Positions 1 through 3,911 of a DNA stretch of 54,091 bases are shown in pieces. The first letter of the stretch is position 1; the number at the start of each line of letters is the position of its first letter. The notes under the pieces are model-generated. The model made no database searches, was not told the DNA's origin, and was given only the letters and a program-made list of their open reading frames with translations. Source of the stretch: Syntrophobacterales bacterium. Its GTDB lineage: Bacteria > Desulfobacterota > BSN033 > WVXP01 > G020346125. The stretch lies in contig CP070774.1 in NCBI GenBank assembly GCA_020346125.1, positions 2,006,290 to 2,060,380 of the forward strand. Direction: 5' to 3'. Both the position numbers and the translations under genes were made by a program.

Positions 1-149
1 CCAAAAGAAAAGTTCCCATCTCCCACCAAGTAATCATCATACTTCTCTTTTCCCTTGGAATGGGATTGATAACCAATGCGCTTCGATCACCCCCCCTTCC
101 CTTAATTGGAAAGTGGTTTCAAGGGGCTTTATCGTTAAAAAGGGATTGA
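1..149 (+). pseudogene. Truncated duplicate of the rhodanese gene 5' end
   Basis: This stretch repeats the start of the rhodanese gene at 2037-2534. From about base 26 to 113 it matches 2068-2155 with no difference that I can see, then similarity fades until about base 140. The reading frame gives the same membrane-anchor segment and stops at 147-149. The window begins inside it, so the first codons are missing. The copy breaks where cysE-like sequence begins, at about 140. The near identity implies a recent duplication of the rhodanese locus followed by deletion. An assembly join between two copies is the main alternative. Confidence 0.8.
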
Positions 150-436
150 GATTCATCCGGGGGCGACAATTGGCCGCCGCTTCTTCATCGATCATGAAAT
201 GAGGGTGGTGATCGGTGAGACGACCGAAATTGGAGACGATTGTTTGATCTATACGGGAAGCGGGGAGAAGGAGAAACGCCATCCTATGCTGGGAAACCGA
301 GTTGTGATCGGTTCCAACAGCACTGTCCTCGGGGCTATTACCAGAGGAGACGGGGCCAAAATTGGTTCGGGATCCGTGAATATATATGGATGTCTCCCCT
401 AGTGCTAGCGTTGTGGGAGTGCCAGGAAGGGTGGCG
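142..436 (+). pseudogene. cysE: Decayed serine O-acetyltransferase fragment
   Basis: The frame from 142 reads as the hexapeptide-repeat (left-handed beta-helix) half of CysE: IHPGATIG, then [23 protein letters not shown] and [11 protein letters not shown]. CysE makes O-acetylserine from serine and acetyl-CoA for cysteine synthesis. The N-terminal half is absent. A few residues are missing before the RHP motif compared with normal CysE. The frame ends at 400-402, but the expected tail (VVGVPGRV) continues in another frame at about 389-436, so a frameshift lies near 385-395. It is broken at both ends and cannot make an active enzyme. Confidence 0.75.
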
Positions 437-696
437 GATTCGGATGCGGCGCTGCCAGTACGACGAGCTCCATTATCACCGAAAAGATCAAGGGAAGGGA
501 CATTGAGGAAGCCTTAAGGATTTCAGGTGAAACGGCCAAGGACATATTGAGCCAATCGCCCAAGGATAAGGTTACCTGCTTCACCTTAGCCGCCAATGCA
601 TTGAGGCTGGCCATAGAGGAATACCGCTGCAACAAACAAGAAATCCATGAGAAGGGGGGGATGAGTTCGGAGGATCTGAAAAAAGCCATCTCTTGA
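436..696 (+). pseudogene. NifU/IscU-like Fe-S scaffold, C-terminal fragment
   Basis: The frame from 436 begins with a GFGCGAA segment, continues with a KIKGRDIEEAL stretch and then KVTCFTLAANALRLAIEEY, and ends at a TGA at 694-696. This is the pattern of the second half of a NifU/IscU-like iron-sulfur scaffold protein, with two of its cluster-ligand cysteines (GCGA and the KVTC region). The first half, including its cysteine, is missing, and the fragment starts exactly where the cysE remnant ends. cysE, nifS and nifU genes commonly neighbour each other, so this looks like a deletion-fused remnant of such an operon. Confidence 0.65.
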
Positions 697-778
697 GCTG
701 GAATTTGTTATATAATAGTATTGGTATAGTTTTTGCAAATTAATAGAATCAGAAGTCAGTAACGGAAAGGGAATCTCA

Positions 779-1897
779 ATGAGAAGGATGGTATTGCTGA
801 TCGTTATGTTTGGGCTGTTGGCCCTTTGCCAACCCATGGGAGCGGGTGAATTGACGATCATCTATTCCAATGATACGGGTGGAGTAATTGATCCCTGTCC
901 CACTTGAAGGAACAAGTTTATAGGTGGGCTGGCCCGGCGGGTCACCTTTATAAAGGAGCTCAAAAAAGAAGGAAAAGGGGCCCTCATCCTCGACGCGGGC
1001 AACCTTTTCTTTAAGGGCAAGGGCTCTCCCTCTTCTCCCGATAAGGATAAAGCCATATTGATCGCACGGGCTTATCACCGCATGGGATATCAGGTCGTCA
1101 ATATCGGCTCTGATGACCTTTCGGCCGGAATTGAATTCCTGAGGGAATTACAGAGGGAGATTCATGTACCCCTCATATCTGCCAACCTCCTGGATCAACA
1201 GGATGGAAAGCCGATCTTCAAATCCCATATGGTATTGGATTTAGGTGGGATAAGAGCCGGCGTTTTCGGCCTGACCTCTGATGTTCGCCACAATAAAGGG
1301 GTTACCCCTAAAGGATATGTTATATCCAATCCGATAACGGCGGCGAAGAGGGTTGTGGCCGAACTTGGGAAGGATTGTGATATCATCGTAGCCTTGAGCA
1401 ACCAGGGCTCTCTTAAGGAATATACCAAGCTCGTTCAACAGATGGAGGAGATTCAGTTCATCTTTGGGAGTGGAGGTAGGGGAACCTATCATCAAACCAT
1501 TCGATCCGATAGAAACTGGAAGGCATTTCTCTTTCGGGCTCGTACAAAAGGGAGGTACCTGGGAAGGATCGACTTGAAAGTACTAAAGGGATCCCGTGAT
1601 TTCGTTGACCTCAGCCGCAAGGCCAATATAGAGGGACAAATCAACATGATCGAAAAGCAATTAGATTCCTACCGAAGGGGAACGGGAAGGGCCAAATCCA
1701 TTCCCCGGGATAAGAGGGAGGAGTATATCAAGAAATTGGAGAAATTTATGAATAGGTCCGAGGCCCGATTAAGTAAGTTGGAGAGGGATGCTAGCTTGAA
1801 TAGCACCTTTACTAATACTATCGTTCCCCTCGATAATAAGGTAAAGGAGGATCCCGAGATGATAGAATGGGTAGATCAGTTCAAGAGGGGCCAATGA
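779..1897 (+). CDS. UshA-like secreted protein, probable selenoprotein (UGA at codon 43)
   Basis: The frame opens at ATG 779 with a hydrophobic signal peptide (residues 1-23) and runs to 1897 (372 residues) with a single in-frame TGA at 905-907. That codon sits in Cys40-Pro-Thr-UGA43, a CxxU pattern where a CxxC redox pair would be expected, followed by the family-like GGLARR segment. Protein-like sequence continues for 329 codons after the UGA. The fold resembles 5'-nucleotidase/UshA metallophosphatases, but the metal motifs are degenerate: SNDTGG for the usual SND-x-HG, and GSDD where GNHE is expected, so phosphatase activity is doubtful. The C-terminus (about 235-330) is helical and charged. 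I recall RefSeq families named UshA-like (seleno)protein, but could not check. The next gene overlaps the stop. A nonsense mutation is the alternative reading. Confidence 0.72.
917..954 (+). promoter_or_regulatory. SECIS-like hairpin downstream of the in-frame UGA
   Basis: Ten bases after the UGA at 905-907 the coding strand can fold. TTTATA (917-922) pairs with TATAAA (949-954) and GGTG (923-926) with CACC (943-946), leaving a two-base bulge at 947-948. An upper stem GCTG/CGGC (928-931 with 935-938) has a GCC apical loop starting with G, about 24 bases from the UGA. Bacterial SECIS elements lie inside the coding region at about this distance, with a G early in the apical loop. I paired it by hand; no energy was computed. 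Confidence 0.6.
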
Positions 1898-2037
1898 ATA
1901 GGCGTGAATGTTACCCCCACGTGGGCTTTATGGAAAGAGCGGACAGCGAAATAATCCTCAAACTATGGGAATATAAGAAACCCATGATTACCTATTTCGG
2001 TTTTTTCAGTGGGATCTTTTCTTCCCTAAACAACTAA
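1894..2037 (+). CDS. 47-residue ORF coupled on both sides
   Basis: This small ORF starts with an ATG that overlaps the stop of the UshA-like gene (ATGA, 1894-1897) and ends with a TAA that overlaps the rhodanese start (TAATG, 2035-2039). Such double overlap suggests translational coupling rather than chance. The product has a charged first half with one cysteine (Cys6) and a hydrophobic aromatic second half (about residues 31-45) too short to be a confident membrane helix. I recognise no family. It could be a real small protein or the remains of one whose frame still serves to carry ribosomes through. Confidence 0.45.
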   Translation: MNRRECYPHVGFMERADSEIILKLWEYKKPMITYFGFFSGIFSSLNN

Positions 2038-2534
2038 TGGCTGCAAAAGGGAAAGTTCCAATCTTTCACCAAGTAATCATCATACTTCTCTTTTCCCTTG
2101 GAATGGGATTGATAACCAATGCGCTTCGATCACCCCCCCTTCCCTTAATTGGAAATTGGTTTAAAGGGACTTCGTCATTAAACGTGGGAAGGAATATTTC
2201 CACGGTTTCCATAGAGGAGGCCGTGGTAAAATTTATAACCCAGGATGCCCTTTTTCTCGATGCTCGTTCAAGAGCTGATTACCAATTGGGGCATATAAAA
2301 GGAGCCTTGAATTTACCCGTTCATGATGAGGATTTCGGCGAAAGGCTTCATGAGTTCGTGTTAGAAGTGAATCATGACAGGGAACTAATCGTCTATTGCG
2401 AAGATATCGACCCTACCTTAAGCCCTGAACTTGCCTCCATATTAACAAGCATGGGATACAAGAAGGTTAAAATCCTTGCCAATGGGTGGAGCGAATGGAA
2501 TGTGGCGGCAATGCCTTTCGAAGTGGATAGATAA
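2037..2534 (+). CDS. Membrane-anchored rhodanese-like protein
   Basis: This 165-residue protein has an N-terminal hydrophobic helix at about residues 10-30 (signal anchor) and a single rhodanese domain at about 55-160. Visible rhodanese marks are LFLDARSRADYQLGHIKGALNLP and a putative active-site cysteine in VYCED. Rhodanese domains carry persulfide sulfur or act as sulfur-binding modules. The anchor predicts an extracytoplasmic domain. The start overlaps the stop of the 47-residue ORF, and a MauE/DoxX gene follows 9 bases later, so the module probably works on thiol or sulfur redox in the envelope. Its 5' end is duplicated at 1-149. Confidence 0.85.
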   Translation: MAAKGKVPIFHQVIIILLFSLGMGLITNALRSPPLPLIGNWFKGTSSLNVGRNISTVSIEEAVVKFITQDALFLDARSRADYQLGHIKGALNLPVHDEDFGERLHEFVLEVNHDRELIVYCEDIDPTLSPELASILTSMGYKKVKILANGWSEWNVAAMPFEVDR

Positions 2535-2543
2535 ATAGATAAT

Positions 2544-3029
2544 ATGAAGGGATTGATACGTTCCGTCGTTAACCTTTATACCAGCCCCTATGCTTCCGTC
2601 ATATTCCGCTGGGCCGTGGGCTTGATCTTCATCTATGCCAGCATGGATAAACTACTTCACCCCTCGGCCTTTGCAGTTGCTGTGTATAATTACAAGATCC
2701 TTCCAGGAAGCCTCATTAACCTGGTTGCGATAACGCTCCCCTGGGTGGAGCTGATCTGTGGAATCCTCCTTCTCATCGGTTTGTTTCCCCGAGCAACAGC
2801 CCTTATCCTGAGTATTCTGCTCTTACTCTTCTTCTCCGCTCTCTCGATAAGCCTCTACCGAGGCATCGATATCAGTTGCGGTTGTTTCGCAGTAACTACA
2901 ACTGTGGATAAAATTGGCATCTCCTACATGGTAAGAGACCTTCTTGTCCTGGCGATGAGCGTTCAAATCCTATTCTTCGACGGAAACCTCATGAGCATAG
3001 AACGTCTTCTCCCTACCAGTTACCGTTGA
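2544..3029 (+). CDS. MauE/DoxX family redox-associated membrane protein
   Basis: The 161-residue product has four predicted membrane helices (about residues 18-35, 50-70, 75-98 and 125-145) in the DoxX/MauE arrangement, with a Cys-Gly-Cys motif (SCGCF) in the loop before the last helix. MauE-type proteins pass reducing power across the membrane or support disulfide formation in secreted partners. The gene lies 9 bases after the rhodanese gene and closes the UshA-like/rhodanese/DoxX module. The natural inference is that its cysteine pair exchanges electrons with the CxxU site of the UshA-like protein or with the rhodanese. Confidence 0.8.
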   Translation: MKGLIRSVVNLYTSPYASVIFRWAVGLIFIYASMDKLLHPSAFAVAVYNYKILPGSLINLVAITLPWVELICGILLLIGLFPRATALILSILLLLFFSALSISLYRGIDISCGCFAVTTTVDKIGISYMVRDLLVLAMSVQILFFDGNLMSIERLLPTSYR

Positions 3030-3119: not shown

Positions 3120-3911
3120 ATGAAGGATTTTTTTCGAAAATTAGCGGATATTGAAAAAGAGGGAAGACGGGCAGCCCTTGCCATCGTCGTAAGTACCAAA
3201 GGATCAACCCCGAGAAAGGCCGGGACCAAGATGATCATTATGGAGGATGGGAGTACCTTCGGAACCCTGGGAGGTGGCGGTCTGGAGAAAAAAGTTATCG
3301 AGGAATCCCTCGAGGCCCTGAAAGGGGGAGAAGCGAGACTGACATCCTTTAATCTGGATGGAACGAAGGGAAACCTGGACATGATGTGTGGGGGCGAGAT
3401 TGAGATCTACATCGAGCCAATTCACCAACCGGAGAAACTCATCATATTCGGTGCTGGTCATATTACAAAGGCTTTGGCACCTCTGATGCAGTCAGTTGGC
3501 TTTCGGCTAACCGTGGTAGAAGATAACCCGGAAGTGCTGGGAGAAGATCAGCTTGCGGATATGGAAGGGCTCATTTCGGAAAATATGGAGTCTTATGCAG
3601 AAAGGCTTCCCCCTGAAAGCAACACATATATCGTACTTCTTACCAGAGGCTTTTCAACGGACAGGGCCATTCTTGAACACCTCATCGGAAAGGACTTTCG
3701 CTATGTGGGGATGATCGGAAGCCGGAAAAAGATTAGGACCATCAAGGAGGAGTTGATCTCGAAGGGAATTGAAAAGGAGTATTTCTCCAAACTCTACGCT
3801 CCCATAGGCCTTGATATAGGAGCAGAGACGCCTGAGGAGATTGCCCTCAGTATCGCCGCTGAAATCATCTCTGTTAGAAAAGGCAAGTCCATGTATCGAG
3901 GAAAGGGGTAA
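3120..3911 (+). CDS. xdhC: XdhC/CoxI family molybdenum hydroxylase accessory protein
   Basis: This 263-residue protein has the XdhC N-terminal domain (VVSTKGSTPRKAGTKM, then CGGEIEIYIEP at about 88-98) and the C-terminal Rossmann domain (about 104-250: IIFGAGHITKAL, then YVGMIGSRKK). XdhC proteins bind molybdenum cofactor and help insert its sulfido ligand into xanthine dehydrogenase-type enzymes. I chose ATG 3120 because GGAG lies six bases upstream and the family starts there; an in-frame ATG at 3096 has no good ribosome site. No molybdenum hydroxylase is in the window, so it is unpartnered here. lgt follows after 10 bases. Confidence 0.88.
   Translation: MKDFFRKLADIEKEGRRAALAIVVSTKGSTPRKAGTKMIIMEDGSTFGTLGGGGLEKKVIEESLEALKGGEARLTSFNLDGTKGNLDMMCGGEIEIYIEPIHQPEKLIIFGAGHITKALAPLMQSVGFRLTVVEDNPEVLGEDQLADMEGLISENMESYAERLPPESNTYIVLLTRGFSTDRAILEHLIGKDFRYVGMIGSRKKIRTIKEELISKGIEKEYFSKLYAPIGLDIGAETPEEIALSIAAEIISVRKGKSMYRGKG

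Follow-up and report, generated by a model that had tools for sequence, protein, structure and literature searches.

UshA-like proteins are one of the few selenoprotein families that do not belong to the usual thiol-oxidoreductase folds. They were listed as COG0737 proteins with a CxU motif in the 2008 GOS survey, whose family overview names UshA-like proteins, SelD, and FdhA as exceptions among the major families, without a conserved Cys-based redox motif (PMC2398784). The family reappears in two later reviews (PMC9312934, PMC13188914), with no function in the entries given to it there, and the second of them lists both NF041198 (CxU) and NF049981 (CxxU). A first-pass annotation of the window, i.e., the whole 54,091-nucleotide stretch of Syntrophobacterales DNA analyzed here, had flagged the gene at 779–1897 as a probable UshA-like selenoprotein and as an underexplored system; the latter description does not stand, as such selenoproteins had already been catalogued in these sources and by the two profiles.

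The product of 779–1897 resembles each described group only in part. It is homologous over the whole protein to NF041198, the UshA-like (seleno)protein PCGU (225.1 bits, E 1.4e-66), and the two share the position of selenocysteine (Sec), with GG[LVI]A[RK] after it, and degraded metal motifs. However, the window protein scores under the 275-bit cut-off, has CPTU (CxxU) instead of PCGU (CxU), is 372 residues long compared to ~519, and has different gene neighbors. With NF049981, the UshA-like (seleno)protein family 2, it shares CxxU followed by GG[LM]ARR (E 5.8e-31), but the match is strong at profile positions 1–90 only, its 107.9 bits fall under the cut-off of 140, and the members above the cut-off belong to another family. 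The N-terminal metallophosphatase domain fold is common to the window protein, the periplasmic UshA/5'-nucleotidases, and SoxB, whereas the metal ligands, the catalytic histidine, and the C-terminal substrate domain are missing from the window protein, which has gained the Cys/Sec pair. In the tree, it groups with its congeners in a clade of their own (support 1.0), whose place among the other clades is poorly supported. Because of the separate clade and the scores under both NCBIfam cut-offs, the window protein and its congeners are an unnamed subfamily of the known UshA-like selenoproteins. The same scores make it likely that automatic annotation handles the product wrongly, either truncating it or starting it 3' of the TGA. 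The features of the locus are collected in Table 1.

Table 1. Features of the UshA-like locus, in window positions
Feature	Position	Strand	Remarks
Remnants of cysE and a nifU-like gene	142..697	+	broken; both intact upstream in congeners
UshA-like selenoprotein gene	779..1897	+	372 codons; TGA codon 43, almost certainly read as Sec; TGA terminator
Probable signal peptide, residues 1-22	779..844	+	by eye from sequence; AlphaFold helix 2-16
Cys40-Pro-Thr-Sec43 motif	896..907	+	TGT CCC ACT TGA
Possible SECIS-like hairpin	917..954	+	just 3' of the TGA
Rhodanese domain protein (PF00581)	2037..2534	+	N-terminal membrane anchor
MauE/DoxX family membrane protein (PF07291)	2544..3029	+	CGC motif
XdhC family protein	3120..3911	+	conserved next gene in congeners; part in the system uncertain

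Conservation of the in-frame TGA

The reading frame continues as protein-coding sequence across its single internal TGA. This codon (905–907) lies in the context DPCPT-TGA-RNKFIGGLARR, and the frame closes with a second TGA at 1895–1897; here the first-pass annotation is right in coordinates, codon number, and motif. By simple arithmetic with 3 stops per 64 codons, the chance of finding 329 open codons after a random stop is ~1e-7. The family-like sequence reported for these 329 codons holds in comparison with three congeners, which are 67–70% identical to the window protein up to its end. 3' of the TGA, the window diverges from the congeners by ~0.20, 0.15, and 0.33 at codon positions 1, 2, and 3, respectively; with position 2 lowest and position 3 highest, the part after the TGA is therefore under constraint at the protein level. 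The window also contains other frames in which an internal TGA lies close to a Cys codon.

Relatives generally retain either TGA or Cys at the equivalent of codon 43. A homology search of 23 genomes of the class recovered them in 21; the single protein as query gave no match against the genome contigs, compared to 19 loci with an alignment as query. The codon is TGA in all three congeners. Distant relatives show PCP[TSVG]-TGA or PCG-TGA, and the few CxxC forms without TGA show PCQTC, PCSTC, or PCGTC, with Cys at the Sec site; the homologue comparison proposed at first pass thus came out in favor of Sec. A CxxC copy and a CxxU copy occur on the same contig at two loci (L076 and L081), and one locus has CGC at the motif (L101). 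Of the 395 genomes sampled from the phylum, 167 contain a relative at E <= 1e-30, and among the matches listed most contain exactly one TGA. In a paralogue of the PCGU type (L028, 4–1548), the motif reads PSGR: both Cys and Sec are lost, with Arg at the Sec site, and the rest of the protein is intact.

Given the TGA in all three congeners, the coding constraint downstream, and the TGA or Cys in distant relatives, UGA codon 43 almost certainly encodes selenocysteine on this comparative evidence. The alternative is that the TGA is an ordinary stop, created by pseudogene decay or by a sequencing error. The gene does lie close to a contig end, and upstream of it neither cysE nor the nifU-like gene is intact in this species. 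Against this, the TGA recurs at precisely this codon in the three congeneric species and in many distant relatives, the protein sequence is conserved on both sides of it, Cys is the alternative residue, and the genome has the machinery for Sec insertion. An ordinary stop is thus extremely improbable, and conservation led us to reject the pseudogene reading.

Selenocysteine machinery and a possible SECIS element

All four components of the Sec system, selA, selB, selC, and selD, which the first-pass annotation had asked to be looked for, are present in the genome, with selD and the tRNA-Sec gene as copies truncated at gaps. The matches to selA and selB score 644 bits (cut-off 268) and 376 bits (cut-off 242), respectively. 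The best selD match (L063, genome positions 1447933–1448172) covers the 5' part only and ends at a 100-N scaffold join. It carries an in-frame TGA of its own (AKAAG-TGA-AAK), at the position of the catalytic Cys or Sec in SelD proteins; SelD of this genome is probably a selenoprotein itself. A tRNA with a UCA anticodon and a long variable arm (genome positions 1995159–1995231) is likewise interrupted by a 100-N join. When the sequence as far as this join is searched, its best Rfam family is tRNA-Sec (43.9 bits, E 6e-8, 5'-truncated), below the gathering score of 47. The highest-scoring Rfam match to tRNA-Sec (L001) was rejected, as ARAGORN identifies it as tRNA-Leu; the true tRNA-Sec is a lower match. 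One 73-base query and one exact pattern did not find tRNA-Sec in the three congeners, whose assemblies consist of 280–480 contigs, and this is weak negative evidence because the assemblies are fragmented and the queries narrow.

A possible SECIS-like hairpin just after the TGA finds more support across the family than in the single gene. In this gene alone, the structure is indistinct from dinucleotide shuffles (z -0.81 over 51 nt), and synonymous-codon shuffling gives z -1.57. Across 28 family members, synonymous-codon shuffles give a mean z of -0.75, compared to -0.06 for control stretches from elsewhere in these genes. Since the 28 sequences are interrelated, this comparison lends the predicted hairpin moderate support.

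Loss of the metallophosphatase active site

The product of 779–1897 is assigned to the UshA/5'-nucleotidase metallophosphatase fold, of which it has the N-terminal domain only, by sequence matching and by a predicted structure. The best phmmer match is 2z1a (E 6e-14), covering query residues 11–231 only; the AlphaFold model (pLDDT 85, pTM 0.82) has 1oie as its best Foldseek match (E 8.7e-22). Both approaches bear out the UshA-like assignment made at first pass. A helical C-terminal extension follows the metallophosphatase domain and completes the 372 residues. The C-terminal nucleotide-binding domain is absent from both the phmmer span and the predicted structure, and a Pfam search gave no match.

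The metal site of the parent fold has been lost in the window protein. The first-pass annotation had pointed to SNDTGG and GSDD, and the remaining motifs extend this observation: D-x-G stands for D-x-H, AGN for GD, GSDD for GNHE, SNQG for SHxG, and GSGG for GH-x-H/Q. The histidine of GNHE is gone in nearly all relatives read, with one exception (GVHD in L100), and the histidines of the last two motifs, SHxG and GH-x-H/Q, are kept in the CxxU relatives of family f3 and lost in the genus of the window. Such a gradation in metal-ligand loss among relatives suggests a route from a hydrolase fold to selenium chemistry. By sequence alignment, Cys-x-x-Sec belongs to the loop that follows strand 1 and neighbors the first metal motif, which would place Cys40 and Sec43 near the former metal site in space.

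Without a di-metal site and without the C-terminal domain for nucleotide binding, the product is very probably no longer a nucleotidase; Sec insertion and loss of the nucleotidase role, taken jointly, are highly probable. The protein could instead have remained a hydrolase similar to 5'-nucleotidase or SoxB, the Cys/Sec pair standing in for lost ligands of an unusual metal site. The fold is unchanged, the profiles of UshA and SoxB still match, the pair adjoins the first metal motif in sequence, and the f3 relatives keep two histidines. Nevertheless, every other motif has changed in the window protein, which also lacks the substrate domain, and we consider continued hydrolase activity very improbable. 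Because Cys40-x-x-Sec43 adjoins the parent enzyme's first metal motif, what was the catalytic pocket has probably turned into a selenol/thiol site. The earlier proposal of a redox protein rather than a phosphatase holds for the loss of the metal motifs, and its redox part stays conjectural, as some relatives lack the Cys. In six loci (L123, L125, and L127–L130), the motif is P[SA]GU or xSGU, with Sec retained and the partner Cys gone; a CxxC-type cycle therefore cannot hold across the whole superfamily, and in some branches, to judge from these sequences, the essential chemistry may depend on Sec alone.

Gene neighborhood and proposed function

The selenoprotein gene precedes a rhodanese gene and a MauE/DoxX gene in its genus. 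As far as the contigs reach, the order in congeners is cysE, the nifU-like gene, the selenoprotein gene, rhodanese, MauE, XdhC, and Lgt. The UshA-rhodanese-MauE order was traced in four genomes of the genus, in three of which all or part of the triple lies on one contig; in the fourth, rhodanese adjoins the UshA-like gene. An UshA-like CxxU gene also stands before rhodanese-MauE in one genome of another family (L131/L157). This shared order turns the locus into a concrete hypothesis with candidate partner genes. In L131 (1647–6538), the triple directly follows genes for an Acr3 arsenite exporter, a thioredoxin-domain protein, and a DsbD-type membrane protein, neighbors that may point to a connection with arsenic or thiol stress. 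The TsoB profile of the Tso selenoproteins resembles the rhodanese of the locus.

We propose the following mechanism. The cell's SelA/SelB/SelD/tRNA-Sec system almost certainly reads UGA codon 43 as Sec, and the product, a single UshA-type domain with its helical extension, would be exported by way of the probable signal peptide. The former catalytic pocket would serve as a selenol/thiol site. Judging from the gene order, the protein would most likely form a periplasmic thiol-redox or sulfur-transfer module with the anchored rhodanese and the MauE/DoxX protein. Sec43 would attack a persulfide or disulfide, Cys40 would resolve the selenenyl-sulfide, and electrons would pass via the MauE/DoxX membrane protein. 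A redox or sulfur-transfer role with rhodanese and MauE is a tentative assignment, to which we give somewhat less than even chances. The full proposal, i.e., that the dead metallophosphatase pocket of a third, undescribed short CxxU subfamily acts as a periplasmic persulfide/disulfide reductase coupled to the membrane through rhodanese and MauE/DoxX, is doubtful. Several observations count against the module: the rhodanese-MauE pair, which is common in the phylum (a rhodanese match shares the stretch with MauE in 26 of the 30 best MauE loci), usually occurs without an UshA gene; the CxxU gene of family f3 has other neighbors, including selA; and some relatives have Sec without the Cys.

These f3 neighborhoods raise the alternative that the selenoprotein serves selenium metabolism, e.g., as a periplasmic selenium-binding or selenite-reducing protein feeding Sec synthesis. 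In five loci of class relatives (L052, L054, L057, L058, and L059), the UshA-like CxxU gene is directly followed by a B12-binding radical SAM gene (TIGR04190) and selA, and L058 has yedF and selD close by, together with a gene of the cysteine desulfurase family. However, in the genus of the window, the radical SAM-selA pair stands apart from the UshA gene, which adjoins rhodanese-MauE instead, and a search of the window's own genome for a second UshA-like gene beside selA found none. Other relatives lie near multihaem cytochromes, FdhA (L144 and L147, in genomes G031 and G068 of relatives without the partner Cys), or unrelated genes, and the proximity of selenoprotein genes to selA may be regulatory only. 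A role in selenium metabolism is thus unlikely for the window protein, and the module with rhodanese and MauE remains our preferred reading.

Two further observations concern the start of the window. The upstream cysE and nifU-like genes are frameshifted and fused by a ~350 bp deletion. The 5' end of the rhodanese gene is present twice, as a 137-bp direct repeat at 3–139 and 2046–2182 (92% identical). The first copy opens the contig immediately behind a scaffold join of 100 N, so the repeat may reflect either a genuine partial duplication or misassembly at the contig end.
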